Assembly (NCBI GenBank): GCA_902775345.1
Contig: CACYLW010000002.1
Coordinates: 62,001 to 126,000, forward strand
Reading direction: 5' to 3'
Source of the DNA: an uncultured Eubacteriales bacterium
Lineage (GTDB): Bacteria; Bacillota; Clostridia; Peptostreptococcales; Anaerovoracaceae
Length of the DNA: 64,000 nt
Shown here piece after piece: positions 29,643-64,000 of the stretch. The position numbers and the translations under genes were made by a program. The notes under the pieces are model-generated. The model searched no databases, had not been told where the DNA came from, and was given only the letters and a program-made list of their open reading frames with translations. The number at the start of each line of letters is the position of its first letter. Positions within the stretch are counted from its first letter, which is position 1.

Positions 29643-29671
29643 TTGTCTTTGAAGATTCTAAGAATTATAAT
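29643..29671 (+). promoter_or_regulatory. Promoter of the purine nucleoside ABC transporter operon
   Basis: TTGTCT (29643-29648), 17 bases, TATAAT (29666-29671), followed by TAA. The -35, spacing and -10 are the same as upstream of the MerR gene (45630-45658). The leader to the binding protein start is about 95 bases; I see no purine riboswitch core in it. Confidence 0.65.
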
Positions 29672-29770
29672 TAAGTCATCATAAACCTATCTGCTGATAC
29701 GTTAGGATAGTGTTCTCAAAATGTGATCGGCAGAGTTTTCTGTGTATTTATAACAGGGAGGATAATGATT

Positions 29771-31006
29771 ATGAAGAAAAGACTTATTGCTTTATTGGTT
29801 TGCTTAGTAATGGTAATGATGCCAATGCTGGCAGCCTGCGGCGGCGGTGGCGGCGAAGAAGCTCCGGCCGGAGACGAAGGCGGAGATTTCAAGGTCGCGC
29901 TGATTTGTCTGCACGATGAGAATTCGACTTATGACCTCAACTTCATCAACGGATTCAAGGAGGCCATGGGTGAACTGGGTCTCAGCGAGGATCAGTACAT
30001 GATCAAGACAGGCGTTCCTGAAGGCCAGGAGTGCTACGACGCAGCTGCTGAACTTGCTGATGCGGGCTGCAAGCTGATCTTCTCCGACTCGTTCGGTCAT
30101 CAGGACTACATGCTGCAGGCAGCTCAGGAATTCCCTGAAGTTCAGTTCGTAAGCTGCACAGGCACAAACGCAGCTTCCTCCGGAGCTGACAACATGCACA
30201 ATGCGTTCGCTTCGATTTATGAAGGACGTTATCTTGCAGGCGTTGCAGCAGGCATGAAGCTCAACGAGATCAAGGAAGCCGGAAAGCTCAAAGGCGACGC
30301 ACCTAAGATGGGATATGTCGGAGCATTCACTTATGCAGAGGTTATCTCCGGATACACATCGTTCTATCTCGGCGCAAAGAGCGTATGCCCGGATGTAACA
30401 ATGGACGTAACATTCACAGGTTCATGGTATGACGAGACAGCTGAAAAGGAAGGCGCTACAAAGCTGATCCAGGGCGGCTGCGATCTGATCTCACAGCACG
30501 CTGACTCCTTCGGAGCTCCTACAGCATGCGAGAACGCCGGAATCCCGAATGTATCCTACAACGGAAGCACAAAGGAAGCTGGTCCTAACACTTACATCAT
30601 CTCGTCCAGGATCAACTGGGCTCCATTCTTCAAGATGGCTTCTGAAGCAGTTCAGAAGGGTGAGGCATTTGACACCAACTACACAGGAACTATCGATACC
30701 GGTTCTGTTGAACTCACAGAGCTCAACGAGGATGTTGCTGCTGAAGGAACAGCAGAGAAGCTCGAAGAGGTTAAGGCAGGTCTCAAGGATGGTTCCATCC
30801 ATGTATTTGACACAAGCACATTCACCGTTGGAGGAAAGGCAGTGGATGCATCCAATGTACCTGCTGACACTACATATGCAGACTTTGACCCTGCTAATGC
30901 AGAGGCACTCGTTGCTGACGGATACTATCATGAATCCGAGTTCAGATCAGCTCCGTACTTCGACCTCAACATTGACGGCATCAACCTGCTCGATACAAAG
31001 TTCTAA
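29771..31006 (+). CDS. BMP family ABC transporter substrate-binding lipoprotein (purine nucleoside type)
   Basis: 411 residues from ATG 29771, nine bases after AGGGAGG; earlier in-frame starts at 29723 and 29765 are less well placed. The signal peptide ends in the lipobox Leu-Ala-Ala-Cys (C23), then a Gly/Glu linker. The mature protein starts Phe-Lys-Val-Ala-Leu-Ile and continues with the Bmp/PnrA/Med fold, including the Gly-Phe-Lys-Glu-Ala and Gly-Ala-Phe-Thr-Tyr-Ala-Glu-Val segments. Such proteins bind purine nucleosides outside the membrane. The downstream ATPase, permeases and adenine deaminase strongly support a purine substrate. Confidence 0.9.
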   Translation: MKKRLIALLVCLVMVMMPMLAACGGGGGEEAPAGDEGGDFKVALICLHDENSTYDLNFINGFKEAMGELGLSEDQYMIKTGVPEGQECYDAAAELADAGCKLIFSDSFGHQDYMLQAAQEFPEVQFVSCTGTNAASSGADNMHNAFASIYEGRYLAGVAAGMKLNEIKEAGKLKGDAPKMGYVGAFTYAEVISGYTSFYLGAKSVCPDVTMDVTFTGSWYDETAEKEGATKLIQGGCDLISQHADSFGAPTACENAGIPNVSYNGSTKEAGPNTYIISSRINWAPFFKMASEAVQKGEAFDTNYTGTIDTGSVELTELNEDVAAEGTAEKLEEVKAGLKDGSIHVFDTSTFTVGGKAVDASNVPADTTYADFDPANAEALVADGYYHESEFRSAPYFDLNIDGINLLDTKF

Positions 31007-31054
31007 AACTGACTGGAACAGACCTAACGTAACAACAGCATAACTGTTGACAGC

Positions 31055-31092
31055 CTTGGCCGGTCTCGTGAAGACGGGATCGGCCAAGTTTT
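31055..31092 (+). terminator. Terminator/attenuator between binding protein and ABC ATPase
   Basis: CTTGGCCG (31055-31062) and CGGCCAAG (31081-31088) form a GC-rich stem, extended by partial pairing inside, followed by TTTTA. It lies inside the transporter operon, so it probably lets the binding protein be made in excess over the membrane parts. Confidence 0.7.
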
Positions 31093-31138
31093 AAAAAGAA
31101 AGCAATAATTATCATATCTTCGAAAGGGGGGGATTATT

Positions 31139-32713
31139 TTGCAGGACAGCAGAACACCCGCAGTTTCGATGAGAAACATTACCAAGACATTCGGCACCAT
31201 CACTGCCAATAAGAATGTCGATCTCGATATATATCGCGGAGAAATACTGTCGCTCCTCGGTGAGAACGGCTCGGGCAAGACGACGCTGATGAACATGCTC
31301 TCCGGAATCTATTTCCCGGATGAGGGCGAGATCTTTATCGATGGAAAGCCTGTCGTCATATCTTCGCCGAAAATTGCATCCGAGCTGGGCATTGGAATGA
31401 TCCACCAGCACTTCAAGCTCGTAAATGTCTTTACTGCTGCTCAGAACATCATACTCGGCATAGACCAGAATTCCGAAAACGGAAAGAAGATCCCGGGATT
31501 CAGCAAGCTCGATGTCGAAAATGCGTCAAAGAAGATACGCGAGATATGTGATCTCTACGGATTTGATGTAGATCCTGATCAGAAGGTCTACGACATGTCT
31601 GTGTCACAGAAGCAGACAGTTGAGATCGTAAAGGTTCTTTATAAGGGTGCAGACATACTTATACTCGATGAGCCTACCGCGGTACTGACTCCGCAGGAGA
31701 CAGAAAAACTCTTTACGGTACTCCGCAACATGAGAGAAGCCGGAAAGACGGTAATCATCATCACGCACAAACTGCACGAGGTAGAGGCTATTTCAGATAA
31801 AGTAGCCATACTCCGCAAAGGCGAATATATCGGAACATTGATTACAAAGGAGACCAACGCCCAGGAGATGACCAACATGATGGTAGGGCGTGAGGTCAAA
31901 CTCAATATAGACAGACCTGAACCTCATGATGTAAAGCCTAGGATAAAGGTCAAAGGCCTTACGGTAAGGTCTGAAGACGGCCTGCTTAAGCTTGACGATG
32001 TATCCTTTACCGCGAACACGGGCGAAGTCCTCGGCATAGCCGGCATTTCCGGCTGCGGACAGAAGGAACTGCTTGAGGCAATAGCCGGCCTTCAGCCAAT
32101 TGAAAAAGGCGAGATCATTTACGTTGAAGATGACGGCACAGAAACGGATCTTGTAGGACTCAGCGACATGGAGATCGACGCCAAAGGAGTTTCCCTCGCG
32201 TTCGTTCCGGAAGACAGACTGGGCATGGGACTTGTTGCAAGCATGGACCTGGCCGACAACATGATGCTGAGATCTTTCAGGAGAAAGGGCAGCATTGCCG
32301 GATTCACTGACCGGAAGACTCCGAGAGAGCTTGCGGAAAGGGTAGTTGAAGAACTGGAAGTAGTGACTCCTAGTATCGAAACACCGGTACGCAGACTTTC
32401 AGGAGGTAATGTTCAGAAGGTGCTCGTAGGCCGTGAGATCGCCATGAATCCTACGGTGCTGATGTCTGCTTACGCAGTAAGAGGTCTCGACATCAACGCA
32501 TCGTATATCATATATGATCTTGTAAATCAGCAGAAGGAACGGGGCGTAGCTGTTATATTCGTCGGCGAAGACCTCGACGTGCTGCTCGAACTTTCAGACC
32601 GCATACTTGTTCTCTGCGGCGGCAAAGTGAGCGGAATAGTTGACGGCAGAACGGCGGATAAGAACGAAGTAGGTCTCCTCATGACAAAGCTTGGAGGTGA
32701 AGCAATTGGATAA
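31139..32713 (+). CDS. BMP-type ABC transporter, duplicated ATPase
   Basis: 524 residues from a TTG start behind AAAGGGGGGG. Two ABC domains are present. The first is complete: Walker A Gly-Glu-Asn-Gly-Ser-Gly-Lys-Thr (41-48), the family-type signature Met-Ser-Val-Ser-Gln-Lys-Gln and Walker B Leu-Ile-Leu-Asp-Glu-Pro-Thr. The second is degenerate: Gly-Ile-Ser-Gly-Cys-Gly-Gln-Lys in place of Walker A, a good Leu-Ser-Gly-Gly-Asn-Val-Gln-Lys signature, and Met-Ser-Ala-Tyr-Ala-Val-Arg-Gly-Leu-Asp where relatives usually have Gln-Pro-Thr-Arg-Gly-Leu-Asp. It powers nucleoside import with the two permeases downstream. Confidence 0.93.
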   Translation: MQDSRTPAVSMRNITKTFGTITANKNVDLDIYRGEILSLLGENGSGKTTLMNMLSGIYFPDEGEIFIDGKPVVISSPKIASELGIGMIHQHFKLVNVFTAAQNIILGIDQNSENGKKIPGFSKLDVENASKKIREICDLYGFDVDPDQKVYDMSVSQKQTVEIVKVLYKGADILILDEPTAVLTPQETEKLFTVLRNMREAGKTVIIITHKLHEVEAISDKVAILRKGEYIGTLITKETNAQEMTNMMVGREVKLNIDRPEPHDVKPRIKVKGLTVRSEDGLLKLDDVSFTANTGEVLGIAGISGCGQKELLEAIAGLQPIEKGEIIYVEDDGTETDLVGLSDMEIDAKGVSLAFVPEDRLGMGLVASMDLADNMMLRSFRRKGSIAGFTDRKTPRELAERVVEELEVVTPSIETPVRRLSGGNVQKVLVGREIAMNPTVLMSAYAVRGLDINASYIIYDLVNQQKERGVAVIFVGEDLDVLLELSDRILVLCGGKVSGIVDGRTADKNEVGLLMTKLGGEAIG

Positions 32714-33815
32714 GAAAACTAAGGAACCATTGATCCACATTACCAAGCGTAAGATGATCCCTAAGAAGCAGGAATGGGCGATAAGACTGGGAGGCATACT
32801 CGCAGCGCTGATCTTCTGCGCCATCATCACGACCATCACGACGCACCTGAATCCTCTCGCTGTTTACGCAAAGATGTGGGAAGGATCGTTCGGAAGTCCC
32901 CGTAAGTTCTGGGCTCTTCTCAAAGAACTTTCGTCGCTGCTGCTTATCGCGGTCGCGCTGGCTCCGGCTTTCAAGATGAAGTTCTGGAACCTCGGCGGCG
33001 GCGGCCAGGTAATGGCCGGAGTACTCGCAACGACAACAGTCATGATAACGGCTACAGATAAACTGCCTAACGGGGTAATAATACTTCTTTCACTGATTGC
33101 AGCACTTGCAGCCGGAGCTCTCTGGGCATTTATCCCGGCCTTCTGCAGGGCAAAATGGAACACCAACGAGACCCTGTTTACCCTTATGATGAACTACATA
33201 GCGACTCAGATCGTTGCATACTTCATCATCATATGGGAGCATCCGAAGGGCTCGGGCAAGATCGGCATTATCAACCAGACCTCACATACAGGCTGGCTGC
33301 CTACGATAGGAGGCAATCCGTATGCGCTGATCTTTATCGTATCCATTATTGTGACTATCTTCATGTATATCTACCTGAAGTACACCAAGCACGGCTATGA
33401 GCTTTCAGTAGTAGGTGAGAGTGAGAATACAGCCAGATACGTAGGCATCAATGTCGGAAAGGTCATAGTCCGTACACTGGTCCTCTGCGGTCTCATCTGC
33501 GGACTGACAGGCTGGCTGCTGGTAGCGGGAACTGACCACACCATGACAACGACCATAGAGGGAGGCAAAGGCTTCCTTGGCGTCATGGTTGCGTGGCTGG
33601 CGCACTTCAACCCTATTGGAATGATACTCTCAGGACTTCTGATGGTATTCATGGCTAAGGGCGGAAGCGAGATCTCGATGGCATTCGGACTCAACAGATC
33701 CTACGGAGACATACTTACGGGCATAATCCTGTTCTTCGTAATCGGAAGCGAGTTCTTCATCAACTATCAGATACACTTCCGTAAGTCGCACAGAAAGGAG
33801 GCTGCAGATGTTTAG
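32706..33815 (+). CDS. BMP-type ABC transporter permease 1
   Basis: 369 residues from TTG 32706, five bases after a GGAGGTGA ribosome binding site (32693-32700) and overlapping the ATPase end by eight bases; a longer reading from TTG 32691 would start inside that site. After a basic N-terminal tail there are about eight to nine membrane helices. Features of the nucleoside/ribose-type permease family are Trp-Asn-Leu-Gly-Gly-Gly-Gly-Gln and Asn-Glu-Thr-Leu-Phe-Thr-Leu-Met-Met-Asn-Tyr-Ile-Ala. It forms the channel with the second permease. Confidence 0.9.
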   Translation: MDKKTKEPLIHITKRKMIPKKQEWAIRLGGILAALIFCAIITTITTHLNPLAVYAKMWEGSFGSPRKFWALLKELSSLLLIAVALAPAFKMKFWNLGGGGQVMAGVLATTTVMITATDKLPNGVIILLSLIAALAAGALWAFIPAFCRAKWNTNETLFTLMMNYIATQIVAYFIIIWEHPKGSGKIGIINQTSHTGWLPTIGGNPYALIFIVSIIVTIFMYIYLKYTKHGYELSVVGESENTARYVGINVGKVIVRTLVLCGLICGLTGWLLVAGTDHTMTTTIEGGKGFLGVMVAWLAHFNPIGMILSGLLMVFMAKGGSEISMAFGLNRSYGDILTGIILFFVIGSEFFINYQIHFRKSHRKEAADV

Positions 33816-34794
33816 TTTAATATCATTCTTGCCGAGAGCCATCGTGCAGAGCGTTCCGCTCCTGCTTGGATGCGTCGGTGAGACGCTCAACGAGAAATCC
33901 GGCAGCCTTAACCTGGGTATTCCGGGCGTCATGTACGTCGGAGCCATATGCGGTGTAATCGGATCATTCATGTATGAAAATTCAGGAAGCGCGTTCAATC
34001 CTGTGATAGGCGTGATCATACCAATTATCACGTGCATGCTGGGAGCGTTAATGATGGGACTCATATTCTGTTTCCTGACTGTAACGCTCAGAGCTAACCA
34101 GAATGTAACAGGTCTTGCTATGACGACTTTCGGAGTAGGCTTCGGAAACTTCTTCGGCGGATCCATCATCAAGCTGACAGGCGCTGAGGTTCCTTCGATC
34201 ACACTTTCCGCAACGAGCAAGGCGTTCAAGACGACGCTGCCGTTCGCAGGCAAGGCAGGAGTTGTAGGAGAGCTGCTGTTCTCATACAGCTTCATGACAT
34301 ATGTTGCTATCATCATAGCTCTCCTGACCTCATACATGCTGAACAAGACCCGTACGGGACTTGAACTGAGAGCTGTCGGGGAGAACCCTGCTACAGCTGA
34401 TGCCGCCGGTATCAACATCAACAGGTATAAGTACTTTTCGATATGCATAGGATGCATGATAGCAGGCATAGGCGGTCTGTTCTATGTACTTGACTATGCT
34501 AACGGAGTATGGTCCAACGACGCATTCGGAGACCGCGGATGGCTCGCTATCGCACTCGTAATTTTCTCGATCTGGCGTCCGAACTGGGCGATCTGGGAAT
34601 CGATCCTCTTTGGCGGACTGTACATCCTGTATCTGTACATCCCTACAGGCACGAACTTCGCCATGAAGGAGATCTACAAGATGCTTCCGTATCTGGTTAC
34701 GATCATCGTGCTTATAGCCATAAGTCTAAGGAACAAGCACGAGAATCAGCCGCCTGAAGCTCTCGGACTGCCGTACTTCAGAGAAGACCGATAA
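33808..34794 (+). CDS. BMP-type ABC transporter permease 2
   Basis: 328 residues, starting eight bases before the stop of permease 1 and behind AAAGGAGG. About eight membrane helices. Family features include Leu-Gly-Glu-type Val-Gly-Glu-Thr-Leu-Asn-Glu-Lys-Ser-Gly near the N terminus, Asn-Leu-Gly-Ile-Pro-Gly and Gly-Glu-Asn-Pro-Ala-Thr-Ala-Asp-Ala-Ala-Gly-Ile in the cytoplasmic coupling loop. It pairs with permease 1 for nucleoside import. Confidence 0.9.
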   Translation: MFSLISFLPRAIVQSVPLLLGCVGETLNEKSGSLNLGIPGVMYVGAICGVIGSFMYENSGSAFNPVIGVIIPIITCMLGALMMGLIFCFLTVTLRANQNVTGLAMTTFGVGFGNFFGGSIIKLTGAEVPSITLSATSKAFKTTLPFAGKAGVVGELLFSYSFMTYVAIIIALLTSYMLNKTRTGLELRAVGENPATADAAGININRYKYFSICIGCMIAGIGGLFYVLDYANGVWSNDAFGDRGWLAIALVIFSIWRPNWAIWESILFGGLYILYLYIPTGTNFAMKEIYKMLPYLVTIIVLIAISLRNKHENQPPEALGLPYFREDR

Positions 34795-34872: not shown

Positions 34873-36579
34873 TTGAAGTACGAAACATACAAAAAACTGG
34901 CACCGGCCGCTCTGGGCAAGGTAAAGGCCGACCTCATTTTCAAAAACTGCAGTATTGTCGATGTATTTACCGGCGAGATCGTTGAAGGAAACATCGGCGT
35001 TAAGGACGGTATCATCATCGGCGTCTCAAGATCGATCCAGGGAAAGAAGGAGATAGATCTCAACGGCGCATGCATCGCGCCGGGATTCATCGACGCCCAT
35101 CTGCATCTTGAATCAACGATGGTAGCTCCTGCTGAGCTCGTTGCAACTGCGGCTTCTTTCGGCACGACAACTTTCATCGTGGACCCGCATGAGGCGTGCA
35201 ATGTATCCGGAGCTGACGGCATACAGTATATTCTCGACCAGACTGAAAAGTCGGATGCCAATGTATTTGTCATGATGCCATCATGCGTACCGGCAACAAA
35301 CATCGATGACAACGGCTGCATGTTTGCTGCAAACGACATGTATCCGTTCGTAGGCAATGAGCGTATCCTCGGCCTCGGCGAAGTCATGGACGATGACGCG
35401 GTCATCAACGGTGACCCGAGGATGTTCGCGAAGTTCGCGCTCTTCGATCATCAGACTATTGACGGCCATGCGCCATTCCTGCCGAACAGAAAACTTTCGG
35501 CATACAAGCTGGCCGGAGTCGACACCGACCATGAGGCTTCATCATTCGAATATGCGCTTGAGGAAGCCAGGAGAGGCATACATGTTCATGTCCGCGAAGG
35601 TTCGGCGGCTCACAATGTCGACGATATTATCAGCGGAATAGTAAGAACAGGCATAGACACGGAACACTTCAGCTTCTGTACCGACGATAAGCACATCGAG
35701 GACATCCTGAGAGAAGGTCATATCGTATATAACGTAAGAAGAGCGGTCCAGCTTGGTCTCAATCCGTTCAAGGCGATAAAGATGGCTACGATCAATACTG
35801 CCAAGTGCTACGGACTCAAGCACATGGGAGCCATCGCGCCGGGATATCAGGCTGACTTCGTGATCTTCGACAACATGAAGGACTTCAATGTGCTGGATGT
35901 CTATTTCAAGGGCAAACGCATTGACAGGAACGCTCCTGTGAAAGTAAAGAAGTGCCCGCCGCATCTTAAGCATACGGTGAACATAAGCAAGGTCCATGCG
36001 TCTGACTTCGCTCTGCCGATCAGGGGAAAGACTACTCATGTGATCGGAATGGAGCCTAAGCAGATCGTAACGAGCGATATCGCTGCTCACTTCCCTAAGA
36101 CCGATAATTTTGTGCCTCATGACGGATATCTCAAGATCGCTGCTGTCGAAAGACATCAGAACAGCGGCAAGATCGGCGTTGCGGTCACTAAGGGTTACGG
36201 AATCAAAGGCGGAGCAATTGCGTCATCCGTTTCACACGATTCACATAACATCATCGTAATAGGTGACAATGACGAAGACATCGCACTTGCTGTAAACGAG
36301 ATAGCGCGCGTACAGGGCGGATACACCGTTGTTGAGAACGGAAAGGTCTTCGATACACTGCCGCTGCCTATCATGGGCCTGATGACAGACGTCCATTTCG
36401 AGGAAGTTAACGAGAAACTCAGAGTGATGAAGGAAAAGGCTTACGAGATGGGAGTTTCACAGGACTTCGATCCTTTCATAACGCTCTCGTTCATGGCTCT
36501 TACGGTAATCCCGGAACTTCGTGTCACACCTAGAGGCCTTTACAGAGTATCGGATAAGGGATCCGGATTCATCAAATAG
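34873..36579 (+). CDS. ade: Adenine deaminase
   Basis: 568 residues from a TTG start behind AAGGAGG. This is the bacterial Ade/YerA-type amidohydrolase, which converts adenine to hypoxanthine and ammonia. Metal-binding motifs are Gly-Phe-Ile-Asp-Ala-His-Leu-His-Leu-Glu-Ser-Thr and Val-Asp-Pro-His-Glu-Ala; the C-terminal part contains the Ade-specific Ser-His-Asp-Ser-His-Asn segment. It follows the nucleoside transporter, so imported adenine is fed into hypoxanthine for the Mo hydroxylases at 46-63 kb. The M20D gene follows two bases later. Confidence 0.96.
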   Translation: MKYETYKKLAPAALGKVKADLIFKNCSIVDVFTGEIVEGNIGVKDGIIIGVSRSIQGKKEIDLNGACIAPGFIDAHLHLESTMVAPAELVATAASFGTTTFIVDPHEACNVSGADGIQYILDQTEKSDANVFVMMPSCVPATNIDDNGCMFAANDMYPFVGNERILGLGEVMDDDAVINGDPRMFAKFALFDHQTIDGHAPFLPNRKLSAYKLAGVDTDHEASSFEYALEEARRGIHVHVREGSAAHNVDDIISGIVRTGIDTEHFSFCTDDKHIEDILREGHIVYNVRRAVQLGLNPFKAIKMATINTAKCYGLKHMGAIAPGYQADFVIFDNMKDFNVLDVYFKGKRIDRNAPVKVKKCPPHLKHTVNISKVHASDFALPIRGKTTHVIGMEPKQIVTSDIAAHFPKTDNFVPHDGYLKIAAVERHQNSGKIGVAVTKGYGIKGGAIASSVSHDSHNIIVIGDNDEDIALAVNEIARVQGGYTVVENGKVFDTLPLPIMGLMTDVHFEEVNEKLRVMKEKAYEMGVSQDFDPFITLSFMALTVIPELRVTPRGLYRVSDKGSGFIK

Positions 36580-38880: not shown

Positions 38881-38939
38881 AGATGTTATTGATCCATGGC
38901 GCGCAGGATCCTGACATAGATATTTATTGTTGCTATCGA

Positions 38940-38958
38940 TTTCCATATATGCTGGAAA
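38940..38958. promoter_or_regulatory. Inverted repeat upstream of modA
   Basis: TTTCCA, seven bases, TGGAAA, located 22 bases before the modA start and just before the GAAAGAAGG ribosome binding site. A similar TTCCATA/TATGGAA pair lies between yqeC-mocA and the NCS2 permease. It could be an operator; no regulator is identified. Confidence 0.3.
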
Positions 38959-38980
38959 CTCCGGAAAGAAGGTTGTTATT

Positions 38981-39835: not shown

Positions 39836-39848
39836 TATAAAAGGGTTA

Positions 39849-40553: not shown

Positions 40554-40562
40554 GTGCGCGTA

Positions 40563-48842: not shown

Positions 48843-48863
48843 AAGCAGTGAAAGGAGACTAAA

Positions 48864-49751: not shown

Positions 49752-50295
49752 ACAGTATAAAGTGGTCCACTGCACCGTCAACGGCAAGGAGATAGAACAG
49801 ATCGTCGACGTGCGTTCATCGCTCACCGACATGCTGCGCAATGATCTTCACCTGACATCAGTCAAGAAGGGCTGTGAAGTAGGAGAGTGCGGAGCCTGCA
49901 CCGTTATCATCAACGGAGAGGGTTTCAACTCCTGCATATATCTTGCGGTATGGGCAGAGGGCAAGGAGATATGGACGCTCGAAGGCCTCACGGGTCCGGG
50001 CGGAGAGCTTTCAGACATACAGCAGGCATTTGTCGATGAAGGAGCCATACAGTGCGGTTTCTGCACACCGGGCTTCATCATGACAAGCTGGGAGATAGTA
50101 AATTCAGGAAAAGAGTATACGGATGACGAACTCAGGAAGGCTCTGTCGGGTCATCTGTGCAGATGCACCGGATATGAAAACATCTTCCGCGCAGTCAAGA
50201 AGACGATGCTGAGGCACCTTGGCAAGTATGAAGAAGCTGAGCTGGTCAATTCGCAGGGCATCACAGAATATCCGGAACCGATGCCTTTCAAATAG
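49744..50295 (+). CDS. xdhC: Xanthine dehydrogenase, [2Fe-2S] subunit
   Basis: 183 residues with both iron-sulfur domains intact: Cys-Glu-Val-Gly-Glu-Cys-Gly-Ala-Cys...Ser-Cys for the plant-ferredoxin-type cluster and Gln-Cys-Gly-Phe-Cys-Thr-Pro-Gly...Leu-Cys-Arg-Cys-Thr-Gly-Tyr for the second cluster. It links the Mo site of XdhA to FAD in XdhB. Because the nearby XdhD has lost its own clusters, this subunit could also serve XdhD, which is a testable idea. Confidence 0.95.
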   Translation: MAKQYKVVHCTVNGKEIEQIVDVRSSLTDMLRNDLHLTSVKKGCEVGECGACTVIINGEGFNSCIYLAVWAEGKEIWTLEGLTGPGGELSDIQQAFVDEGAIQCGFCTPGFIMTSWEIVNSGKEYTDDELRKALSGHLCRCTGYENIFRAVKKTMLRHLGKYEEAELVNSQGITEYPEPMPFK

Positions 50296-51125: not shown

Positions 51126-51127
51126 AC

Positions 51128-55428: not shown

Positions 55429-58422
55429 ATGAGTGACATTATGCGACCAATGCCTTATAAGCAACTGCTGAACTGGGTACTGGACGAGTATGAAAAAAGC
55501 GGAAGCATCTTCGGCGTTTCCAAGCTGGTAAAACACACAAACGGACAGGCTCTGCCTATCTTCGATGAGAAGATCGAGTCGCCGTTCGGACCTGCTGCCG
55601 GCCCTAACACACAGCTGGCACAGAATATCATCGCATCGTATGTTGCAGGATCCAGATTCTTCGAGCTGAAGACCGTTCAGGTAATGGACGGTGCAGAACT
55701 CGCAGCCTGTGTTGCGAAGCCATGCATCACTGCGCACGATGAATGCTATAACTGCGAGTGGTCGACAGAACTTTATGTACCTCAGGCTTATGAAGAGTAT
55801 GTAAAAGCGTGGTTTATCTGCAAGATCCTGTCGAAAGAACTCGGCCTTGGTGATCCTGACGGCTTCGTATTCAACATGTCCGTCGGATACGACCTTGAAG
55901 GTATCAAGACACCTAAGGTAAACAAATATATCGAAGAGATGAAAGATGCCTCGGATACAGACGTATTCAAGGATGCAATGGCGGTATCGCTGCAGGCTGC
56001 AAAGGATGGCAGATTCAAAAATGTAGATGAGGACTTCATCAAGGCGATCCCTGCAAGGATCTCGAACTCCATTACAGAGTCGACACTTCACGGATGCCCG
56101 CCTGATGAGATCGAGAGGATCGCTTCCTATCTCATCACAGAGAAGGGCCTCAACACATTCATCAAGTGCAACCCGACTCTGCTCGGATATGAGTTCGCCA
56201 GAAAGCGCCTCGATTCGCTCGGATTCGACTACATCGCGTTCGACGATCATCATTTCCTCGAAGACCTGCAGTGGGAGGATGCCGTTCCGATGTTTGAGCG
56301 TCTGCAGGCTCTCTGCGACGAGAAGGGACTTGAGTTCGGCGTCAAGCTGACCAACACGTTCCCTGTAGACGTCAAGGCCGGCGAGCTTCCATCGGAAGAG
56401 ATGTACATGGCCGGACGCAGCCTGTTCCCTCTGAGCATCTATCTTGCCGAGAAGATCTCGAAACAGTTCAACGGCAAGCTGAGGATCAGTTATTCAGGCG
56501 GTGCTGACTACTTCAACATCAAGGAGATATTCGAGGCAGGCATCTGGCCTATAACAATGGCTACGACCATCCTGAAACCGGGTGGATATCAGAGGATGTC
56601 GCAGATCGGCGAGAAGCTGATGGAATGCGGCCATGAGAGATTCAGCGGAGTGGATATCGAAAAGGTAGGAGCTCTTGTTGAGATGTCTCAGGGACCGAGG
56701 AACCAGAAGCCTATCAAGCCGCTTCCTAATCGCAAGAGTGATGAGGAACTTCCGATGCTCGACTGCTTCCACGCTCCTTGCAGCGGCGGATGCCCGATCG
56801 AGCAGGATATCCCTGCATATCTGGAGGCAATGGAAGAAGGCAGAGTGGAAGACGCTCTTAAGATAATCCTCGAAAAGAACGCGCTGCCATTCACTACAGG
56901 AACGATCTGTCCGCACACATGCGCTGACAGGTGCATGAGAAACCACTATGAATCCGCACTCAGGATCCGCGAGGTGAAGCTGATGGCTGCAGAGGCGGGA
57001 TTCGACAAGGTGCTGCCTCAGCTCAAGGCTGCAGCTGCTGCAGACAAGAAAGTGGCAGTTATCGGAGGAGGTCCTGCAGGACTTGCCGCAGCATCGTTCC
57101 TCAGCCGCGCAGGCGCTGACGTAACAGTCTTTGAAAAGAACGACAAAATGGGCGGAGTACCTCGCTATGTGATCCCTGGATTCAGGATCGGAGATGACGC
57201 TCTCGACAAGGATGTGGCTCTCTGCTCGGCATACGGCGCCAAGATGGTCACCGGAAGAGAGATTGCTTCCGTACAGGAACTCAAAGATGAGGGCTTCACA
57301 GACATCATCGTGGCGATCGGTGCATGGGCGCACGGACGCAAGGCTCTGAAGTACGGCGACGAATACGATGCGCTTGAGTTCCTCGCGGCAGTAAAGGCTG
57401 CGCCTGGATCGATAGACCTCGGTACCGACGTAGTAGTTGTCGGCGGTGGCAACACAGCCATGGACGTGGCAAGAGCTGCGAAGATCCAGCCGGGAGTAGA
57501 GCATGTACGCCTCGTATACAGAAGAGACAGAAGGAACATGCCTGCTGATGAGGAAGAACTGGTAATGGCTATAGAGGACGGAGTTGAGTTCATGGAACTC
57601 CTCGCACCTGTAGGCGCGGAGAACGGCGTTCTGAAGTGCGAGATCTGCAGACTCGGAGAGCCTGACGCAAGCGGCAGACGTTCACCTGTAGGAACAGGCG
57701 AATTCTGTGAAGTGCCTGCAACAGCAGTTATTTGCGCGGTAGGCGAGAGGATAAAGACCGGACTGTACGAAGCCGCCGGAGCTGAGCTCACTGAGAAGGG
57801 CGCGCCTGTCGTGGATGAGAATCTCATGACAACAGTACCTGGACTCTATGCGGCAGGCGACTGCAGAAGAGGTCCGGCTACAGTAGTAAAGGCTATCGCT
57901 GATGCTCAGACCATCGCTGCAGCGATCATCGGAGCCGACTTCAGCAAGTATGCTGAACTTGACGCCAAGGGAGACATGGAGAAACTGCTTGCGCGCAAGG
58001 GCGACCTCGTCGACCCTCCTGCAGACAAGCCTGACAACAGATGCCTCGGATGCTCAACAGTATGTGAGGTCTGCGCGGATGTATGTCCTAACAGGGCGAA
58101 CGTCGTAATCGATGTACCGTTCTTCGAAAAACCGCAGATCCTGCATGTCGACGGAATGTGCAACGAGTGCGGCAACTGCGCTATCTTCTGTCCGTACAGC
58201 GGACGTCCTTACAAGGATAAATTCACTCTGTTCTGGAGCGAGGAAGACTTCGCGGACAGCGAGAACAACGGCTTCCTGCCTCTCGAAGACAGAAAGGTAC
58301 GCGTAAGGCTCTTCGGAAACGTCGCAGACTACGACCTGGACGATGCGAAGTGCGGTCTTCCGGATGGAATAGCAGCATTTATAAAGGCTGTTATCAGAGA
58401 TTACGGATATTTAATGGCATAA
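55429..58422 (+). CDS. ygfK: YgfK, multi-domain flavin/iron-sulfur oxidoreductase
   Basis: 997 residues. Residues 1 to about 420 form a dihydropyrimidine/dihydroorotate dehydrogenase-like barrel. Residues about 440-530 carry the GltD-type Fe-S cysteines (Cys-Ser-Gly-Gly-Cys-Pro and Cys-Pro-His-Thr-Cys-Ala-Asp-Arg-Cys). Next is an FAD/NAD(P) module with Val-Ile-Gly-Gly-Gly-Pro-Ala-Gly-Leu-Ala and a second Val-Val-Gly-Gly-Gly-Asn-Thr-Ala. The C-terminal 130 residues hold a ferredoxin-like pair of Cys clusters (Cys-Asn-Glu-Cys-Gly-Asn-Cys...Cys-Pro). It was once called a selenate reductase subunit; in purine-degrading clusters it is better seen as a reductase or oxidase acting on a purine ring, using NAD(P)H. 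Confidence 0.93.
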   Translation: MSDIMRPMPYKQLLNWVLDEYEKSGSIFGVSKLVKHTNGQALPIFDEKIESPFGPAAGPNTQLAQNIIASYVAGSRFFELKTVQVMDGAELAACVAKPCITAHDECYNCEWSTELYVPQAYEEYVKAWFICKILSKELGLGDPDGFVFNMSVGYDLEGIKTPKVNKYIEEMKDASDTDVFKDAMAVSLQAAKDGRFKNVDEDFIKAIPARISNSITESTLHGCPPDEIERIASYLITEKGLNTFIKCNPTLLGYEFARKRLDSLGFDYIAFDDHHFLEDLQWEDAVPMFERLQALCDEKGLEFGVKLTNTFPVDVKAGELPSEEMYMAGRSLFPLSIYLAEKISKQFNGKLRISYSGGADYFNIKEIFEAGIWPITMATTILKPGGYQRMSQIGEKLMECGHERFSGVDIEKVGALVEMSQGPRNQKPIKPLPNRKSDEELPMLDCFHAPCSGGCPIEQDIPAYLEAMEEGRVEDALKIILEKNALPFTTGTICPHTCADRCMRNHYESALRIREVKLMAAEAGFDKVLPQLKAAAAADKKVAVIGGGPAGLAAASFLSRAGADVTVFEKNDKMGGVPRYVIPGFRIGDDALDKDVALCSAYGAKMVTGREIASVQELKDEGFTDIIVAIGAWAHGRKALKYGDEYDALEFLAAVKAAPGSIDLGTDVVVVGGGNTAMDVARAAKIQPGVEHVRLVYRRDRRNMPADEEELVMAIEDGVEFMELLAPVGAENGVLKCEICRLGEPDASGRRSPVGTGEFCEVPATAVICAVGERIKTGLYEAAGAELTEKGAPVVDENLMTTVPGLYAAGDCRRGPATVVKAIADAQTIAAAIIGADFSKYAELDAKGDMEKLLARKGDLVDPPADKPDNRCLGCSTVCEVCADVCPNRANVVIDVPFFEKPQILHVDGMCNECGNCAIFCPYSGRPYKDKFTLFWSEEDFADSENNGFLPLEDRKVRVRLFGNVADYDLDDAKCGLPDGIAAFIKAVIRDYGYLMA

Positions 58423-58440: not shown

Positions 58441-59232
58441 ATGTTGGTTGTAATTAAAGGCGCCGGCGATCTTGCCAGCGGAATAGCCCTGAGACTGCAC
58501 CGCTCAAGAATCGATGTGGTCATGACGGAACTGCCGGTGCCTCTGGCGGTACGCAGGACGGTGGCTTTTTCGGAAGCCATCCGTCTTGGCAGTACTGTAG
58601 TTGAAGATGTTAAGGCTGAAAGAGCCAAAAATACTGATGAGGTGAGGGCGTGCCTTGCAAGGGGTGTGATACCTGTACTGGAAGATCCTGAGGCTGAGAT
58701 CGTAAAGATCCTGAAGCCGGAGGTCGTTGTCGACGCGATCCTCGCCAAAAGAAACACCGGAACTTCAATTAATGACGCGAAACTGGTCATCGGAGTAGGC
58801 CCGGGGTTTTATGCAGGCAGGGACTGCCACGCGGTAATAGAGACAAAACGCGGGCACACACTTGGAAGAGTCATCAGAGAAGGATCGGCTATTCCGAATA
58901 CCGGTGTTCCGGGAAATGTCGGAGGCCAGACCATAAGACGTCTGCTGAAGGCGCCGGCCGACGGCATATTCCATCCTGAGAAGGAGATCGGAGACCTGGT
59001 CAGGGAAGGGGACCGTGTCGGAAATGTTGACGGGGTTCCTGTGTGCGCGCTCACTGACGGAAAGATCAGGGGGCTGCTTCAGGACGGTGTTCATGTAACT
59101 AAAGGACTGAAGTCAGGAGATGTCGATCCGAGAGGAGCCTCGGTCGACCATATGACAGTATCTGATAAAGCCATGTCGATAGGCGGCGGAGTATTGGAAG
59201 CTATCCTTTCATATGCCGGGGACAGGCTGTGA
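58441..59232 (+). CDS. yqeB: Selenium-dependent molybdenum hydroxylase accessory protein YqeB (EF2563 family)
   Basis: 263 residues. It opens with Val-Val-Ile-Lys-Gly-Ala-Gly-Asp-Leu-Ala-Ser-Gly, a Rossmann-like start, and contains Gly-Val-Gly-Pro-Gly-Phe-Tyr-Ala-Gly and Gly-Gly-Gly-Val-Leu-Glu-Ala-Ile near the end. The family is a genomic marker for Mo hydroxylases that carry labile selenium. It sits between ygfK and the polyferredoxin. It probably helps place selenium on the cofactor, but the chemistry is not known. Confidence 0.9.
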   Translation: MLVVIKGAGDLASGIALRLHRSRIDVVMTELPVPLAVRRTVAFSEAIRLGSTVVEDVKAERAKNTDEVRACLARGVIPVLEDPEAEIVKILKPEVVVDAILAKRNTGTSINDAKLVIGVGPGFYAGRDCHAVIETKRGHTLGRVIREGSAIPNTGVPGNVGGQTIRRLLKAPADGIFHPEKEIGDLVREGDRVGNVDGVPVCALTDGKIRGLLQDGVHVTKGLKSGDVDPRGASVDHMTVSDKAMSIGGGVLEAILSYAGDRL

Positions 59233-59248
59233 AGAACTGGAGACAAAA

Positions 59249-59788
59249 ATGGCTAAGAGAATCAAAAAAACTTCATATGTCCGCTGCAGAGGGGGAAGCC
59301 CGTTGCTTGAAGGGATAGACAGAGCTGCGCTCCCCGGAGACTGCGGCGCGATACTCGAGTTATATCCTGATGGTATAAGTAAATGCAGATACGGATGCCT
59401 CGGAGGCGGCTCGTGCGAAGCTGCCTGTCATCTTGCGGCCATCAAGGTCGTGGACGGAGGCCCTCCGGTCATTGACAATGAAAAATGTGTTGGCTGCGGC
59501 CTCTGCGTGCGTGTCTGCCCTCAGAACCTCATTGAGATCATATTACCGGACAGAAACATACAGCCCAAATGCAGTAACCGTGACCTCGGAAAAGCCGCGC
59601 GCGAGGCATGTGACAATTCATGCATCGCCTGCCGCATATGTGAGAGGGAATGTCCTGCCGGTGCGGTCACTGTTGCGGATGGAAAACCTGTGATCGATCC
59701 TGCGGTCTGCATTTGCTGTGGCATGTGCGCAGTCAAGTGCTCTCGCGGAGTCATCAGGGATTCCAACGGAATTATGACTGCTGACTGA
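59249..59788 (+). CDS. Polyferredoxin, RnfB-like Fe-S protein
   Basis: 179 residues from ATG 59249, six bases after GGAG; an ATG at 59213 lies inside yqeB and has no ribosome binding site. It has an RnfB-like cysteine group (Cys-Arg-Tyr-Gly-Cys-Leu-Gly...Cys-Glu-Ala-Ala-Cys) and two or three ferredoxin motifs (Cys-Val-Gly-Cys-Gly-Leu-Cys, Cys-Ile-Ala-Cys-Arg-Ile-Cys, Cys-Ile-Cys-Cys-Gly-Met-Cys). No membrane segment. Directly upstream of the fused hydroxylase, which lacks an FAD subunit, it is the obvious candidate for its electron acceptor. Confidence 0.9.
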   Translation: MAKRIKKTSYVRCRGGSPLLEGIDRAALPGDCGAILELYPDGISKCRYGCLGGGSCEAACHLAAIKVVDGGPPVIDNEKCVGCGLCVRVCPQNLIEIILPDRNIQPKCSNRDLGKAAREACDNSCIACRICERECPAGAVTVADGKPVIDPAVCICCGMCAVKCSRGVIRDSNGIMTAD

Positions 59789-59810
59789 TCTGACAGAGGA
59801 GGTGAGTACC

Positions 59811-62681
59811 ATTTCTTACACATTCACAGTAAACGGAATAAAAAGAACTACCGATGAAAAGAAGCCTCTGCTCAGGTACCTCAGGGATGATCTCAAGCTG
59901 TACTCGGTAAAGGACGGCTGCTCAGAAGGAGCATGCGGCACATGCACCATAGTTGTGGACGGCTACGCTGTAAAAGCCTGCGTCCTCACCACAGACAGGG
60001 CTGCAGGAAAAAATATCATCACGGTAGAAGGTCTCAGCCTGCGTGAAAAGGAAGCATTTGTCTATGCTTTCGGAACAGCAGGATCGGTCCAGTGCGGTTT
60101 CTGCATACCGGGCATGGTAATGGCCGGAAAGGCTCTTATTGACCGCAATCCGGATCCTACGGAGGATGAAATAAAGAAAGCAATAAGGGGCAATGTATGC
60201 CGCTGCACCGGTTACAAGAAAATCATAAACGGCATCAGGAGAGCCGCATCCATTCTGCGCGGCGAAGAAGAAGTCAGACAGATAAGCCAGTTTACGGGCA
60301 AGATGCTGCCTGAGCAGAATGAATTCATCTCTGTTGTAGGCTCCAACTATGATCCTGAACGGGCTTCGGGAATCGCAAATTACGAAAACAAGGGCAACAG
60401 CTCGCAGTACGGCATGGGACAGAACGTGTTCCGTATCGATGTCAGAAAAAAAGTGCTGGGCTACGGAAAGTATCCGGACGATATCGGCCCTGAATACTTC
60501 GTTCCTGCGGACAGACCTGATCTGATAATGGAACAGACCGGCTGGGGAGAAAAAGAATACGCGGATGCCGCTGCAAAGGGCCTTATCATGCCGGGTAAGA
60601 CTATCTGCATGAAAGACGAGCCTCTTGTTAATATCTGCGTTGCAGTCGATCCTGAAATGCCGCCTATGGCATATGCATCGGCCGTCCGCTCGCAGTATCC
60701 GAGAGCGATAGTAAAGAAAATAATAAAGGAAAAAGCCGAGTCACTGCCGGGCGTTCTCGGAGTCCTGACAGCAGCTGACGTGCCGAACAACAAAGTGGGC
60801 CACATTCAGCAGGACTGGGACGTAATGATAGCAGAGGGCTATACGACAAGGATGGTGGGAGACACCATATGCGTCGTAGTTGCTGAATCACCTTACATAC
60901 TTGAGCAGGCAAAGAAGGCCGTAAAGGTAGAATACGAAGTGCTTGAGCCTGTGAAGAGCATCTCCGAGGCCAAGGCTGAAGGAGCGCCGAAGATCCACAG
61001 CAACGGGAATCTCTGTCAGACGAGACACGTCACCCGCGGAGACGCGGCAAAGGCTCTTGCGGAGTCGGCATATACTGCTACAGCTTCGTTCACAACGCCA
61101 TTCACGGAGCACGCCTTCCTTGAGCCGGAATGTGCAGTGTCGTTCCCGTACAAGGACGGAGTCAAGATACTCTCGACAGACCAGGGAGCTTATGACACCA
61201 GGCACGAGGTGGCCATCATGCTCGGCTGGGAGGACTGCCAGGATCGCATCGTGGTAGAGAACCAGCTCATCGGCGGAGGCTTTGGCGGCAAGGAAGACGT
61301 TACGACGCAGCATCTGACTGCTTTGGCAGCGCTGAAGTTCAACAGGCCGGTGAAGATGAAGTTCAGCCGTGCGGAATCACTCAGGGTGCATCCTAAAAGA
61401 CACTACATGGAAGGGACCTTCACTGTTGGCTGCGATGAGAACGGCATACTGACAGGCCTCGACTGTGAGATCAATTTCGATACGGGTGCTTACGCAAGCC
61501 TGTGCGGGCCTGTTCTTGAGCGGGCATGCACGCACAGCGTGGGTCCATACAATTATCACAACACGGACATCAGAGGATTCGGTTATTATACCAACAATCC
61601 TCCTGCGGGAGCCTTCAGAGGATTTGGTGTATGCCAGAGCCAGTTCGCTCTTGAATCGCTCCTGAACGTGCTGGCAAAGAAGGCCGGGATCAGTCCATGG
61701 GAGATAAGATACCGCAACGCGATAGAACCGGGTCTTGAACTCCCGAACGGACAGATCGCGGATGTATCAACTGCGCTGAAGGAAACTCTCGTAGCGGTGA
61801 AGCCGTACTTCGACGATGCACCGGAAGACAGGGTAGGCATAGCCTGTGCTATGAAGAACGCAGGTGTCGGAGTAGGACTTCCTGATAAAGGCAGGGCAGA
61901 ACTCAGAATAAAAGACGGTCTGGTATGGGTATTCACTGCTGCTTCAGACATAGGCCAGGGATGCCAGACTGTATTCCTTCAGGATGTTGCTCAGGCGACG
62001 GATCTGCCTATAACAAAGATCTGGATCGGTAACAGCAGCACGGAAAATGCGCCTGATTCAGGAACCACATCAGGATCCAGGCAGACGCTGGTAACGGGCG
62101 AGGCAGTAAGAGGCGCCGCGCTCATGCTCAGGAAAGCAATGGATGAAGAGGGTGTCACTGAGGATACCCTGGATAAACTGGAAGGCAGAAAGTTCTTTTA
62201 TGAGTACTTTGAGCCTACAGACAAGCTGGGTTCAGACAAGCCGCACCCTAAGAGCCATATCGCATACGGCTTTGCTACAAACGTGGCGGTTCTTGATGCG
62301 GAAGGAAAGGTCACTGATATATATGCGGCATTTGATGCCGGGAAGGTGGTAAACCCGCTGTCGATGTCAGGTCAGATAGAAGGCGGAGTACTGATGAGCA
62401 TGGGATACGCGCTTACGGAGAGCTGGCCTCTCAGGGATTGCGTGCCTACTGCTAAGTACGGGACTCTCGGCTTGCTGCGTTCGACTGATATTCCGGAACT
62501 CCATGCTATACATGTAGAAAAGGATGAGCTTCTCGACGCATCGTACGGCGCGAAGGGCATAGGCGAGATCACATCGATACCTGCGGCACCTGCGATCGCC
62601 GGCGCATACTACGCGAGGGACGGAGTCCTCAGAACGAAGCTTCCGCTTGAAAACACATATTACAGTAAAAAGAAGAAGTGA
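59811..62681 (+). CDS. Selenium-dependent xanthine dehydrogenase type: fused [2Fe-2S] and Mo domains
   Basis: 956 residues if the start is ATT 59811; the standard reading begins at GTG 59802 (959 residues). AGGAGGTGA (59797-59805) sits eight bases before the ATT but covers the GTG, so the true start is unsettled. Both [2Fe-2S] motifs are complete (Cys-Ser-Glu-Gly-Ala-Cys-Gly-Thr-Cys; Gln-Cys-Gly-Phe-Cys-Ile-Pro-Gly; Cys-Arg-Cys-Thr-Gly-Tyr). A linker of about 120 residues leads to the Mo domain with Gly-Gly-Gly-Phe-Gly-Gly-Lys-Glu, Gly-Ala-Phe-Arg-Gly-Phe-Gly and Gly-Ala-Lys-Gly-Ile-Gly-Glu (catalytic Glu). No FAD domain is encoded. It should hydroxylate a purine, probably xanthine. Confidence 0.88.
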   Translation: MSYTFTVNGIKRTTDEKKPLLRYLRDDLKLYSVKDGCSEGACGTCTIVVDGYAVKACVLTTDRAAGKNIITVEGLSLREKEAFVYAFGTAGSVQCGFCIPGMVMAGKALIDRNPDPTEDEIKKAIRGNVCRCTGYKKIINGIRRAASILRGEEEVRQISQFTGKMLPEQNEFISVVGSNYDPERASGIANYENKGNSSQYGMGQNVFRIDVRKKVLGYGKYPDDIGPEYFVPADRPDLIMEQTGWGEKEYADAAAKGLIMPGKTICMKDEPLVNICVAVDPEMPPMAYASAVRSQYPRAIVKKIIKEKAESLPGVLGVLTAADVPNNKVGHIQQDWDVMIAEGYTTRMVGDTICVVVAESPYILEQAKKAVKVEYEVLEPVKSISEAKAEGAPKIHSNGNLCQTRHVTRGDAAKALAESAYTATASFTTPFTEHAFLEPECAVSFPYKDGVKILSTDQGAYDTRHEVAIMLGWEDCQDRIVVENQLIGGGFGGKEDVTTQHLTALAALKFNRPVKMKFSRAESLRVHPKRHYMEGTFTVGCDENGILTGLDCEINFDTGAYASLCGPVLERACTHSVGPYNYHNTDIRGFGYYTNNPPAGAFRGFGVCQSQFALESLLNVLAKKAGISPWEIRYRNAIEPGLELPNGQIADVSTALKETLVAVKPYFDDAPEDRVGIACAMKNAGVGVGLPDKGRAELRIKDGLVWVFTAASDIGQGCQTVFLQDVAQATDLPITKIWIGNSSTENAPDSGTTSGSRQTLVTGEAVRGAALMLRKAMDEEGVTEDTLDKLEGRKFFYEYFEPTDKLGSDKPHPKSHIAYGFATNVAVLDAEGKVTDIYAAFDAGKVVNPLSMSGQIEGGVLMSMGYALTESWPLRDCVPTAKYGTLGLLRSTDIPELHAIHVEKDELLDASYGAKGIGEITSIPAAPAIAGAYYARDGVLRTKLPLENTYYSKKKK

Positions 62682-62696
62682 CAGACATGAAAAAGC

Positions 62697-64000
62697 TGAT
62701 AAAAAACGGAATGATCGCCACGGATACAGAAGTTTTCAATGGTGACATTCTGATTGACGGAGAAAAGATTATCGAAATCGGAAGAAGCATCAGTGCTGAT
62801 GACGCCGAAGTGATCGACGCTTCAGGCAAATACGTGATCCCGGGTGCTGTTGACGTGCATACGCACATGGATCTGGACGTAGGATTTGCAAGGGCTATAG
62901 ACGATTTCTACGACGGGACCGTGGCAGCGGCCTGCGGCGGCACCACTACCATCGTTGACCATATGGCTTTCGGACCTAAGGACTGCAGCCTCTGGCATCA
63001 GGTGAATGAGTACCACCGTCTGGCGGACGGAAATGCGGTCGTCGACTACGGATTCCACGGAGTTTTCCAGCACCTTCATGAATCGACTCTTGAAGAAATG
63101 AAAGAGATCATGGAGAAAGAAGGGATCACAAGCTTCAAGGTCTACATGACTTACGACTACAGGCTGCATGACGACGAGATCTTCTGTGTCCTGAGAGCCG
63201 CTAAGGAGGCGGGGATAGTCATAACCGTCCACTGTGAGAACCACGGTGTCATCACACAGCTCAGAAAAGAATTCGTCGGTGAAGGCAAGACCGAAGCTAA
63301 ATACCATCCGCTCAGCAGACCTGACAGATGTGAGGCTGAGGCTGTCAACAGGATGATACATCTTGCCGCGATGGCAGGAGATGCGCCGCTTTACATAGTG
63401 CATCTGTCAAGCGCTGAAGGTCTTCACGAGGTGCAGAAGGCAAGAGCAGAGCACAGACCGAATCTGGGAGTCGAGACGTGCATACAGTACCTTATCCTTA
63501 CAGATAAGGAGTATGAGGATCCTGAAGAAGGACTCAAGGCTGTCATGTCGCCGCCTCTCCGCAAGGATCAGGACAGGGAAGAACTCTGGCAGGCTCTCGC
63601 TGAAGGGACTGTCGATACTGTCGCAACAGACCACTGCCCGTTCCACTACAAGGCCGGAAAGGCTGAGAAGCAGTATGGAAAGGACGACTTCACAAAATGC
63701 CCTAACGGAGCGCCTGGAGTACAGGAGAGGCTGATGCTGCTCTTCTCGGAGGGTTTCATGAAGGGACGCCTGAGTCTGCCTCAGGTGGTCAAGTACAGCT
63801 CGTCGAATCCGTGCAGAATGTTCGGCATGTATCCGCAGAAGGGAAGCCTGGAGCAGGGTACGGACGCTGACATAGTCATCATCGATCCTGAAAAGAAGAC
63901 GAAAATAGACACGGATTATATAAAGGGCGCTTCAGACTATTCATGCTACGATGGCATGGAGCTGGAGGGAAGGATCGAAAAGGTCTTCCTCAGGGGCGAA
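62697..64000 (+). CDS. hyuA: Dihydropyrimidinase/hydantoinase HyuA (cut by window end)
   Basis: ATG 62697, 434 residues to the window end, nearly full length for this family (about 460). Cyclic-amidohydrolase motifs: Pro-Gly-Ala-Val-Asp-Val-His-Thr-His-Met-Asp, Ser-Phe-Lys-Val-Tyr-Met-Thr-Tyr with the carboxylated Lys, Thr-Val-His-Cys-Glu-Asn, Ile-Val-His-Leu-Ser and Val-Ala-Thr-Asp-His-Cys-Pro-Phe with the catalytic Asp. It hydrolyses cyclic amides such as dihydropyrimidines or hydantoins. In this operon a ring produced from purine breakdown, such as a hydantoin, is a likely substrate. The ribosome binding site is weak (AGAAGAAG). Confidence 0.94.

Follow-up and report, generated by a model that had tools for sequence, protein, structure and literature searches.

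How could a gut bacterium complete the degradation of uric acid when the enzyme of the last step is missing? The question is raised by a 64-kb stretch of DNA (hereafter the window; G000:C2:62001-126000) from the draft assembly of an uncultured Mogibacterium-like gut bacterium (G000, 2.25 Mb). An earlier note had described positions 29643 to 64000 as a purine fermentation island, and the gene content supports this well: purine and urate degradation, transport, molybdenum uptake and the maturation of selenium-dependent molybdenum enzymes are encoded in one block, and the gene classes named there were found in place, most of them over curated family cut-offs. We consider the block to be probably the middle of an island for the anaerobic, reductive degradation of uric acid (by way of yanthine), a strength of belief that applies jointly to the whole explanation given below. 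As a whole, the island is of a known kind and its pathway is already published (PMC12507026). What would go beyond the known pathway is the replacement of diaminopropionate ammonia-lyase (YgeX) by two pyridoxal-phosphate (PLP) enzymes, PLP1 and PLP2, and a polyferredoxin serving as electron donor of the molybdenum enzyme XdhAC.

The published pathway runs from urate through yanthine, dihydro-yanthine, ureidomethyl-hydantoin, diureidopropionate and diaminopropionate to pyruvate (PMC12507026, PMC12990295). We assigned its reactions by homology to the characterised enzymes of Escherichia coli, Clostridioides difficile and Clostridium sporogenes. Purines would enter through the NCS2 permease, and perhaps also through the ABC importer with a PnrA/Bmp-type binding protein; adenine and (hypo)xanthine would be led towards urate by adenine deaminase (Ade) and XdhABC; the reduction of urate to 2,8-dioxopurine would fall to XdhD-YgfM (with NADH), to XdhAC or to both; YgfK, SsnA and HyuA would open the rings; and the two ureido groups would be removed by YgeW with carbamate kinase and by YgeY, one of them yielding ATP. 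SsnA and YgfK both score over their curated cut-offs, as do the TIGR03313 and TIGR03311 matches of the two urate reductase candidates, XdhD and XdhAC (YgfM falls below its own), and HyuA, YgeW and YgeY are present. The genes ygeX, ygeY and ygeW are absent from the window, as the earlier note had stated, and its expectation that the path continues past position 64000 held for two of them: ygeW, a carbamate kinase gene and ygeY start 242 bases after that position and all lie within 4.6 kb (753 bits for a cut-off of 500, 380 for 358 and 596 for 321.5, respectively). Neither ygeX nor selD, which the note had proposed to look for there, was found in that place. The order beyond HyuA is ygeW, carbamate kinase, ygeY, xanthine phosphoribosyltransferase and an alpha/beta hydrolase; cell-wall and chaperone genes come next, so that the island probably ends at the hydrolase. 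YgeY (L007:4202-5602) has 466 amino acids, some 50-70 residues more than the 395-residue model would give.

The remaining step, from 2,3-diaminopropionate to pyruvate and ammonia, would be carried out by PLP1 and PLP2 together in place of YgeX, a proposal that we hold with good confidence on comparative grounds. In the whole assembly, which is 90.5% complete, no protein exceeds the cut-off for YgeX; against the family NF006058 (cut-off 276 bits), PLP1 reaches 45-49 bits and PLP2 is unlisted at E 0.001. The clade considered here comprises G000 and 19 relatives whose XdhAC is at least 78% identical (L057-L072, L074, L076 and L121, with L062 counted as G157). With E. coli YgeX as query, no match at E<=1e-20 was found in G000 and 17 of the 19 relatives, G207 and G208 being the exceptions; since YgeX is absent from 18 of the 20 clade genomes, assembly gaps are an unlikely cause. 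PLP1 occurs in 18 of the 20 (not in G202 and G206) and so does PLP2 (not in G206 and G210), the latter as fragments in G202, G204 and G205. Among 42 hand-picked genomes searched in the same way, YgeX was matched in 21: 17 genomes had YgeX without PLP2, 17 had PLP2 without YgeX, four had both and four had neither.

An even sample consisted of 393 genomes of the class with a completeness of 90% or more; the PLP2 threshold was E<=1e-60, and the SsnA search was taken as the same draw. SsnA was over cut-off in 22 genomes, of which 18 had YgeX only and four (G000, G319, G377 and G393) had PLP2 only; none had both or neither (Fisher test of the exclusion, 1.4e-4, kinship ignored). YgeX was searched in these 22 and in four genomes with SsnA scores of 290-376 bits (26 in total), where G297 had PLP2 only and G352 YgeX only. 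PLP2 was found in 6 of the 393 genomes, and all six belong to the 26 with SsnA of at least 290 bits (4.7e-8 with G262 counted, kinship again ignored). At the thresholds used, YgeX is absent from G000 and most of its clade, and YgeX and PLP2 follow a pattern of exclusion.

The neighbourhoods of the pair, annotated solely with the genes of the window, of the next 6 kb and of the E. coli island, place it within the urate cluster in five further genomes (G227, G319, G393, G377 and G297). The order in G227 is ssnA, ygfK, PLP2, PLP1, ygeY, ygeW, arcC, hyuA, with no YgeX, and the pair directly before ygeY takes the place of ygeX in other loci (cf. L101, L102 and L104). G319 and G393 share the order ygeW, xdhAC, PLP1, PLP2, ygeY, ygfK, a guaD-like gene, ssnA, xdhABC; G377 has xdhAC, PLP1, PLP2, ygeY, ygfK; and G297 has PLP1, ygeY, ygeW, PLP2. 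The pair also precedes hyuA and yqeC in Flavonifractor G223. When mapped on a tree of YgeY with 37 hand-picked rows, the state of having the PLP enzymes without YgeX takes three changes, at least two of them forced by well-supported branches; a single gain of this state plus losses is possible. This tree leaves out L070, loci that lack a usable ygeY and some further loci that have one; of its 17 rows labelled YgeX, L077, L124 and L055 were tested genome-wide for PLP2, and the other 14 are so labelled because their locus contains a ygeX. Some of the Mogibacterium-like relatives in the tree printout carry the label Anaerovoracaceae.

Several observations weigh against this replacement. YgeX and PLP2 occur together in G207, G208, Flavonifractor G223 and G228, so that the pair might have another function. 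G206 has none of the three genes and G210 has PLP1 alone; the other two genomes of the 42 with neither YgeX nor PLP2, G125 and G193, have no match over the XdhAC cut-off. Among the four genomes with lower SsnA scores, G262 has YgeX and a PLP2 relative of 34% identity, and G286 has neither. Three of the four PLP2-only genomes of the even sample (G319, G377 and G393) are of one genus. In the window, the pair adjoins the ABC importer, not ygeY; the same neighbourhood was found in 6 of the 11 further clade stretches that were fetched, and in G211 PLP1 alone stands there. The importer had been claimed for nucleosides. Its binding protein, at 29723, is of the PnrA/Bmp type (PF02608, 95 bits), but the best NCBIfam match of its ATPase and permeases is "putative B6 ABC transporter", below cut-off in each case (404/670, 140/400 and 137/465), which speaks against nucleoside import. 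Import of vitamin B6, next to two PLP enzymes, is a possible alternative function; the probability that we give to the pair as a substitute of YgeX is unchanged by these matches. Ahead of PLP1, at window 24026-26655 (+ strand), G000 encodes a transporter of the MFS type and a FAD-dependent protein, an arrangement shared by 4 of the 11 further stretches.

The four genomes with both enzymes and the position beside the importer would suit an ordinary island in which PLP1 and PLP2 serve another pathway, for example in amino acid metabolism, and in which diaminopropionate is excreted, is cleaved by a general dehydratase or is split by a YgeX that the assembly missed. Candidates for such a dehydratase exist, since G000 encodes IlvA-like and D-serine-dehydratase-like proteins elsewhere in the genome; these two, named by reading their sequences by eye and not by family search, are also the PALP proteins that came nearest to a hidden ygeX, and we rejected them as such. 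We judge the ordinary island distinctly unlikely: the loss of YgeX from nearly the whole clade is poorly explained by assembly gaps, the six PLP2 holders of the even sample are confined to genomes with SsnA, and the pair stands in the urate cluster of five genomes.

What PLP1 and PLP2 are is the next question. PLP1 scores over the cut-off of the threonine synthase family TIGR00260 (206.8 for 167.1), which counts against a role in the urate pathway, and reaches 296 bits against PRK08197 (cut-off 303). It shares fold-type II and 36-37% identity with ThrC of G041, G033 and G168 and keeps Lys111, but its 24 sequences differ invariantly from the three ThrC, with STGN-AAS for STGN-TS, AIN.YL for SVNPYR and changes at other sites. 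PLP1 accordingly lacks the active-site motifs of ThrC, and the changed sites presumably are those that bind the substrate phosphate in ThrC. The gene for homoserine kinase, thrB, was over cut-off in one of the 16 genomes searched (G041, where it adjoins a normal thrC); all 13 clade members among them fell short of it, G000 having a best score of 26 bits for a cut-off of 168. Because thrB is not over cut-off in any of these 13, an ordinary threonine synthase is a disfavored, though still possible, identity for PLP1. The thrB model passes in just 11 of 14 control genomes, and its failure in the other three leaves room for another homoserine kinase, a further point against our proposal.

PLP2 is more distant from known families. 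It has 199 positions invariant over 20 full-length orthologues, and its Lys107 and STGN motif are kept even in the relative of 34% identity; a single-sequence structure model was useless (pLDDT 37). Its best family matches, cysteine synthase and cystathionine beta-synthase (CBS), could suggest a sulfide exchange, in which PLP2 turns diaminopropionate (or albizziin) and sulfide into cysteine, which is then split by PLP1 or another enzyme, the nitrogen being released and the carbon routed through cysteine. The similarity is weak (82.6 bits for a cut-off of 351), and we consider such an exchange very unlikely. If PLP1 and PLP2 do replace YgeX, a racemase plus a lyase would be one possible division of work, because YgeX itself accepts both the D and the L forms of its substrate.

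The pair could have escaped notice in earlier surveys. To mark YgeX around SsnA, Li et al. relied on PF00291 (PMC12507026), a broad family that both PLP1 and PLP2 match; therefore their map could not separate the pair from YgeX, and the system would have stayed hidden. A search of limited literature listings found no published YgeX substitute and no XdhAC polyferredoxin. The full proposal, that PLP1 and PLP2 form an unrecognised two-enzyme system exchanged for YgeX more than once among anaerobic urate degraders and that the polyferredoxin is the missing donor of XdhAC, through which low-potential electrons of ferredoxin would be drained into uric acid, is tentative and in our view falls slightly short of an even chance.

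The second question is how XdhAC receives its electrons. Its physiological donor was said to be not yet discovered in a 2025 commentary (PMC12990295), and Li et al. suggested ferredoxin for the clostridial enzymes (PMC12507026). The polyferredoxin gene, absent from the gene list of the earlier note, shares its first 20 bases with the end of yqeB, and a gap of 13 bases separates it from xdhAC. Its product resembles the C-terminal iron-sulfur part of a solved RnfB, which matches residues 13-181; unlike RnfB, it lacks the first ~90 RnfB residues, and its gene adjoins xdhAC. We counted its occurrence in 80 named xdhAC loci, the best 80 of the 586 found. It lies directly upstream of xdhAC, on the same strand, in 48 of the 80, and nowhere else in the stretches fetched for them. 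The match is at least 100 bits in 45 of the 48, the three weak ones (~50 bits) being from Collinsella. Nineteen cysteines, which would suffice for four [4Fe-4S] clusters, are invariant in all 46 sequences compared, that of the window included. Such neighbours of xdhAC occur in Anaerobutyricum hallii, Eubacterium barkeri, Flavonifractor, Mediterraneibacter and Candidatus Adiutrix. XdhAC shows no FAD-domain match among the families listed, and the solved structures most similar to it are aldehyde oxidoreductases. These are enzymes without FAD, and a reductive relative, 4-hydroxybenzoyl-CoA reductase, is driven by ferredoxin.

We find it fairly likely that the polyferredoxin passes electrons from reduced ferredoxin to the FAD-less XdhAC. 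The gene is not named as a donor of XdhAC in PMC12990295 or in the passages of PMC12507026 available to us, and the main text of the C. difficile paper PMC11448449 contains neither the word ferredoxin nor the word ygeX. Two counts speak against this role: 32 of the 80 loci lack the polyferredoxin, and within the clade it is present in 13 of 19 loci and absent from 6. In 20 of the 32, ygfK, yqeB or the M20 gene ends within 200 bases of xdhAC.

The electrons could also flow the other way, with XdhAC oxidising a purine, the polyferredoxin accepting the electrons and so supplying Rnf or a hydrogenase with reduced ferredoxin, and XdhD-YgfM as the sole urate reductase. The XdhD of the window is 51% identical to that of E. 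coli and keeps a glutamate at the E606 position of the XdhD-specific loop, a loop missing from XdhA and XdhAC of the window, and the aldehyde oxidoreductases nearest to XdhAC would also suit an oxidase. Against this, XdhAC of C. sporogenes reduces urate with an artificial donor (Liu et al., as reported in PMC12990295), and most of the stretches fetched outside the clade, which reach at most 10 kb to either side, show xdhAC together with ygfK and ssnA and have no xdhD match. We regard XdhAC as an oxidase as doubtful, and prefer to see in the island candidates for both the E. coli-type (XdhD-YgfM) and the clostridial-type (XdhAC) urate reductase.

Two further observations concern xdhAC loci. XdhAC of the window has two extra segments (residues ~157-203 and ~229-285, some 90-95 residues in total relative to L031, L032 and L021), seen also in G157 and, to judge from how long the matches are, in the other clade members. 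They sit at the place of the FAD domain in other xanthine dehydrogenases. As a dock for the polyferredoxin they were rejected, L067-L071 having the long XdhAC without the polyferredoxin. In Collinsella ihumii L133, the ygfK and ssnA matches (~5.8-9.5 kb) are distributed among several open reading frames, and xdhAC is preceded by a frame of 97 residues that include 12 cysteines, which suggests that this cluster is broken or misassembled.

How does the island compare with known ones? It shares xdhABC, ygfM-xdhD, ygfK, ssnA, hyuA, ygeW, carbamate kinase, ygeY, yqeB, yqeC, mocA and an NCS2 permease with the uric-acid island of E. coli K-12 (xdhABC-ygeVWXY-hyuA-yqeABC-mocA-ygfK-ssnA-ygfM-xdhD-xanQ; PMC12507026). 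Unlike the latter, it lacks ygeX and has PLP1-PLP2, polyferredoxin-xdhAC, modABC, adenine deaminase and the ABC importer, and the regulator among its annotated genes is of the MerR type instead of ygeV. With the clostridial clusters (C. difficile UacX/UacY; C. sporogenes XdhAC) it has in common the FAD-less XdhAC, SsnA, HyuA and YgeY (PMC12507026, PMC12990295). It differs from them in that its main block has YgfK, and YgeW with carbamate kinase, in place of UacX and UacY, in the polyferredoxin gene before xdhAC and in the lack of YgeX.

The earlier note had also credited the block with its own supply of molybdenum and selenium. Molybdenum supply is largely local: moaC, moaA and a MOSC-MogA gene lie in the window, outside the range covered by that note. 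The first two are over cut-off (the moaA match is at C2:64746-65711, the gene at window 2743-3714), and the third (3719-4678) has a MOSC domain and a MoCF domain over cut-off. The gene that had been called MoeA-like encodes a MoCF_biosynth domain alone, and that name does not stand. Selenium supply is not local: selD is on contig C13 (L015:1501-2439), and the supply is therefore not self-contained in the block. This selD has an in-frame TGA within an AGGUGAK motif; SelD itself is probably a selenoprotein, and the genome would then make selenocysteine. YqeB, YqeC and SelD, the set that marks a system for selenium-dependent molybdenum hydroxylases, are all in the genome.

The features are listed in Table 1. 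ModC (175 bits for a cut-off of 285), YgfM (102 for 241.5), the MocA part, the NCS2 permease and the XdhC-type factor are below cut-off, yet these are their best families. No tRNA genes, and no RNA families at gathering score, were found in the 64-kb window.

Table 1. Features of the window, with match scores in bits and curated cut-offs (score/cut-off or score vs cut-off).
Feature	Position	Strand	Remark
moaC, moaA, MOSC+MogA-like fusion	2267..4678	+	Molybdenum cofactor core genes, ~25 kb upstream of the block
PLP1, threonine-synthase-like fold-type II PLP enzyme	26690..27922	+	PF00291, 245
PLP2, distant cysteine-synthase/CBS-like PLP enzyme	28054..29526	+	Weak family matches
PnrA/Bmp-type binding protein, ABC ATPase, two permeases	29723..34794	+	Candidate for nucleoside or vitamin B6 import
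Adenine deaminase	34873..36579	+	TIGR01178, 558 (cut-off 472.5)
M20 amidohydrolase	36582..37712	+	Beside xdhAC in L067, L068 and L071
MoCF_biosynth domain protein, not full MoeA	37858..38880	+	TIGR00177, 61.6 vs 85.35
modA, modB, modC, molybdate import	38927..41615	+	ModA 118/62.5 and ModB 204/182.6, over cut-off
XdhC/CoxI-type maturation factor	41650..42708	+	265 vs 350
YqeC-MocA fusion	42720..43946	-	YqeC part 155.8/73; MocA part 121 vs 186
NCS2 purine base permease	44023..45483	+	Xanthine permease family, 346 vs 414
MerR-type regulator	45707..46492	+	-
xdhA, xdhB, xdhC, three-subunit xanthine dehydrogenase	46521..50295	+	All over curated cut-offs
YgfM-like FAD subunit and XdhD, probable NADH-type urate reductase	50322..54010	+	XdhD TIGR match 1206.7/1101.9
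SsnA aminohydrolase	54032..55372	+	566/455.5
YgfK, predicted yanthine reductase	55429..58422	+	1339/835
YqeB, selenium-molybdenum maturation factor	58441..59232	+	347/220
RnfB-like soluble polyferredoxin	59213..59788	+	Proposed electron-donor partner of XdhAC
XdhAC, FAD-less, predicted selenium-dependent molybdenum enzyme, candidate clostridial-type urate reductase	59802..62681	+	1120.6/830
HyuA hydantoinase	62678..64000, 84 bases beyond window	+	529.8/393; truncated by the window end

Two amidohydrolases deserve mention. In the relatives L067, L068 and L071, the M20 gene is conserved beside xdhAC. Directly 5' of moaC, at 667-2265 on the + strand, lies another amidohydrolase (PF01979/PF07969), which we considered as a possible UacY; its identity to the protein that occupies the UacY position in L056 is just 29%, which makes this assignment doubtful. 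The protein of L056 is an amidohydrolase between ssnA and ygeY, a gap which we take to be where UacY of C. difficile-type clusters is expected. The amidohydrolase of the window could serve as another ureido-cleaving enzyme, or it could be a D-aminoacylase of general function.

Finally, by XdhAC, the closest named relatives (96-97% identity) carry one of two labels, Mogibacterium sp. (from the gut of goat and sheep) or uncultured Clostridiales (RUG isolates), and are followed by horse-derived relatives at no more than 88%, in a listing from which records very close to G000 itself are possibly missing. Anaerobic gut bacteria that destroy uric acid influence the urate levels of their hosts (PMC12507026, PMC12990295). 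If the two-enzyme last step is real, surveys that use ygeX as a marker would miss Mogibacterium-like genomes from ruminants and horses and at least one further genus, and those based on PF00291 would miscount YgeX. The polyferredoxin, for its part, would be a concrete candidate for the donor listed as undiscovered in PMC12990295.

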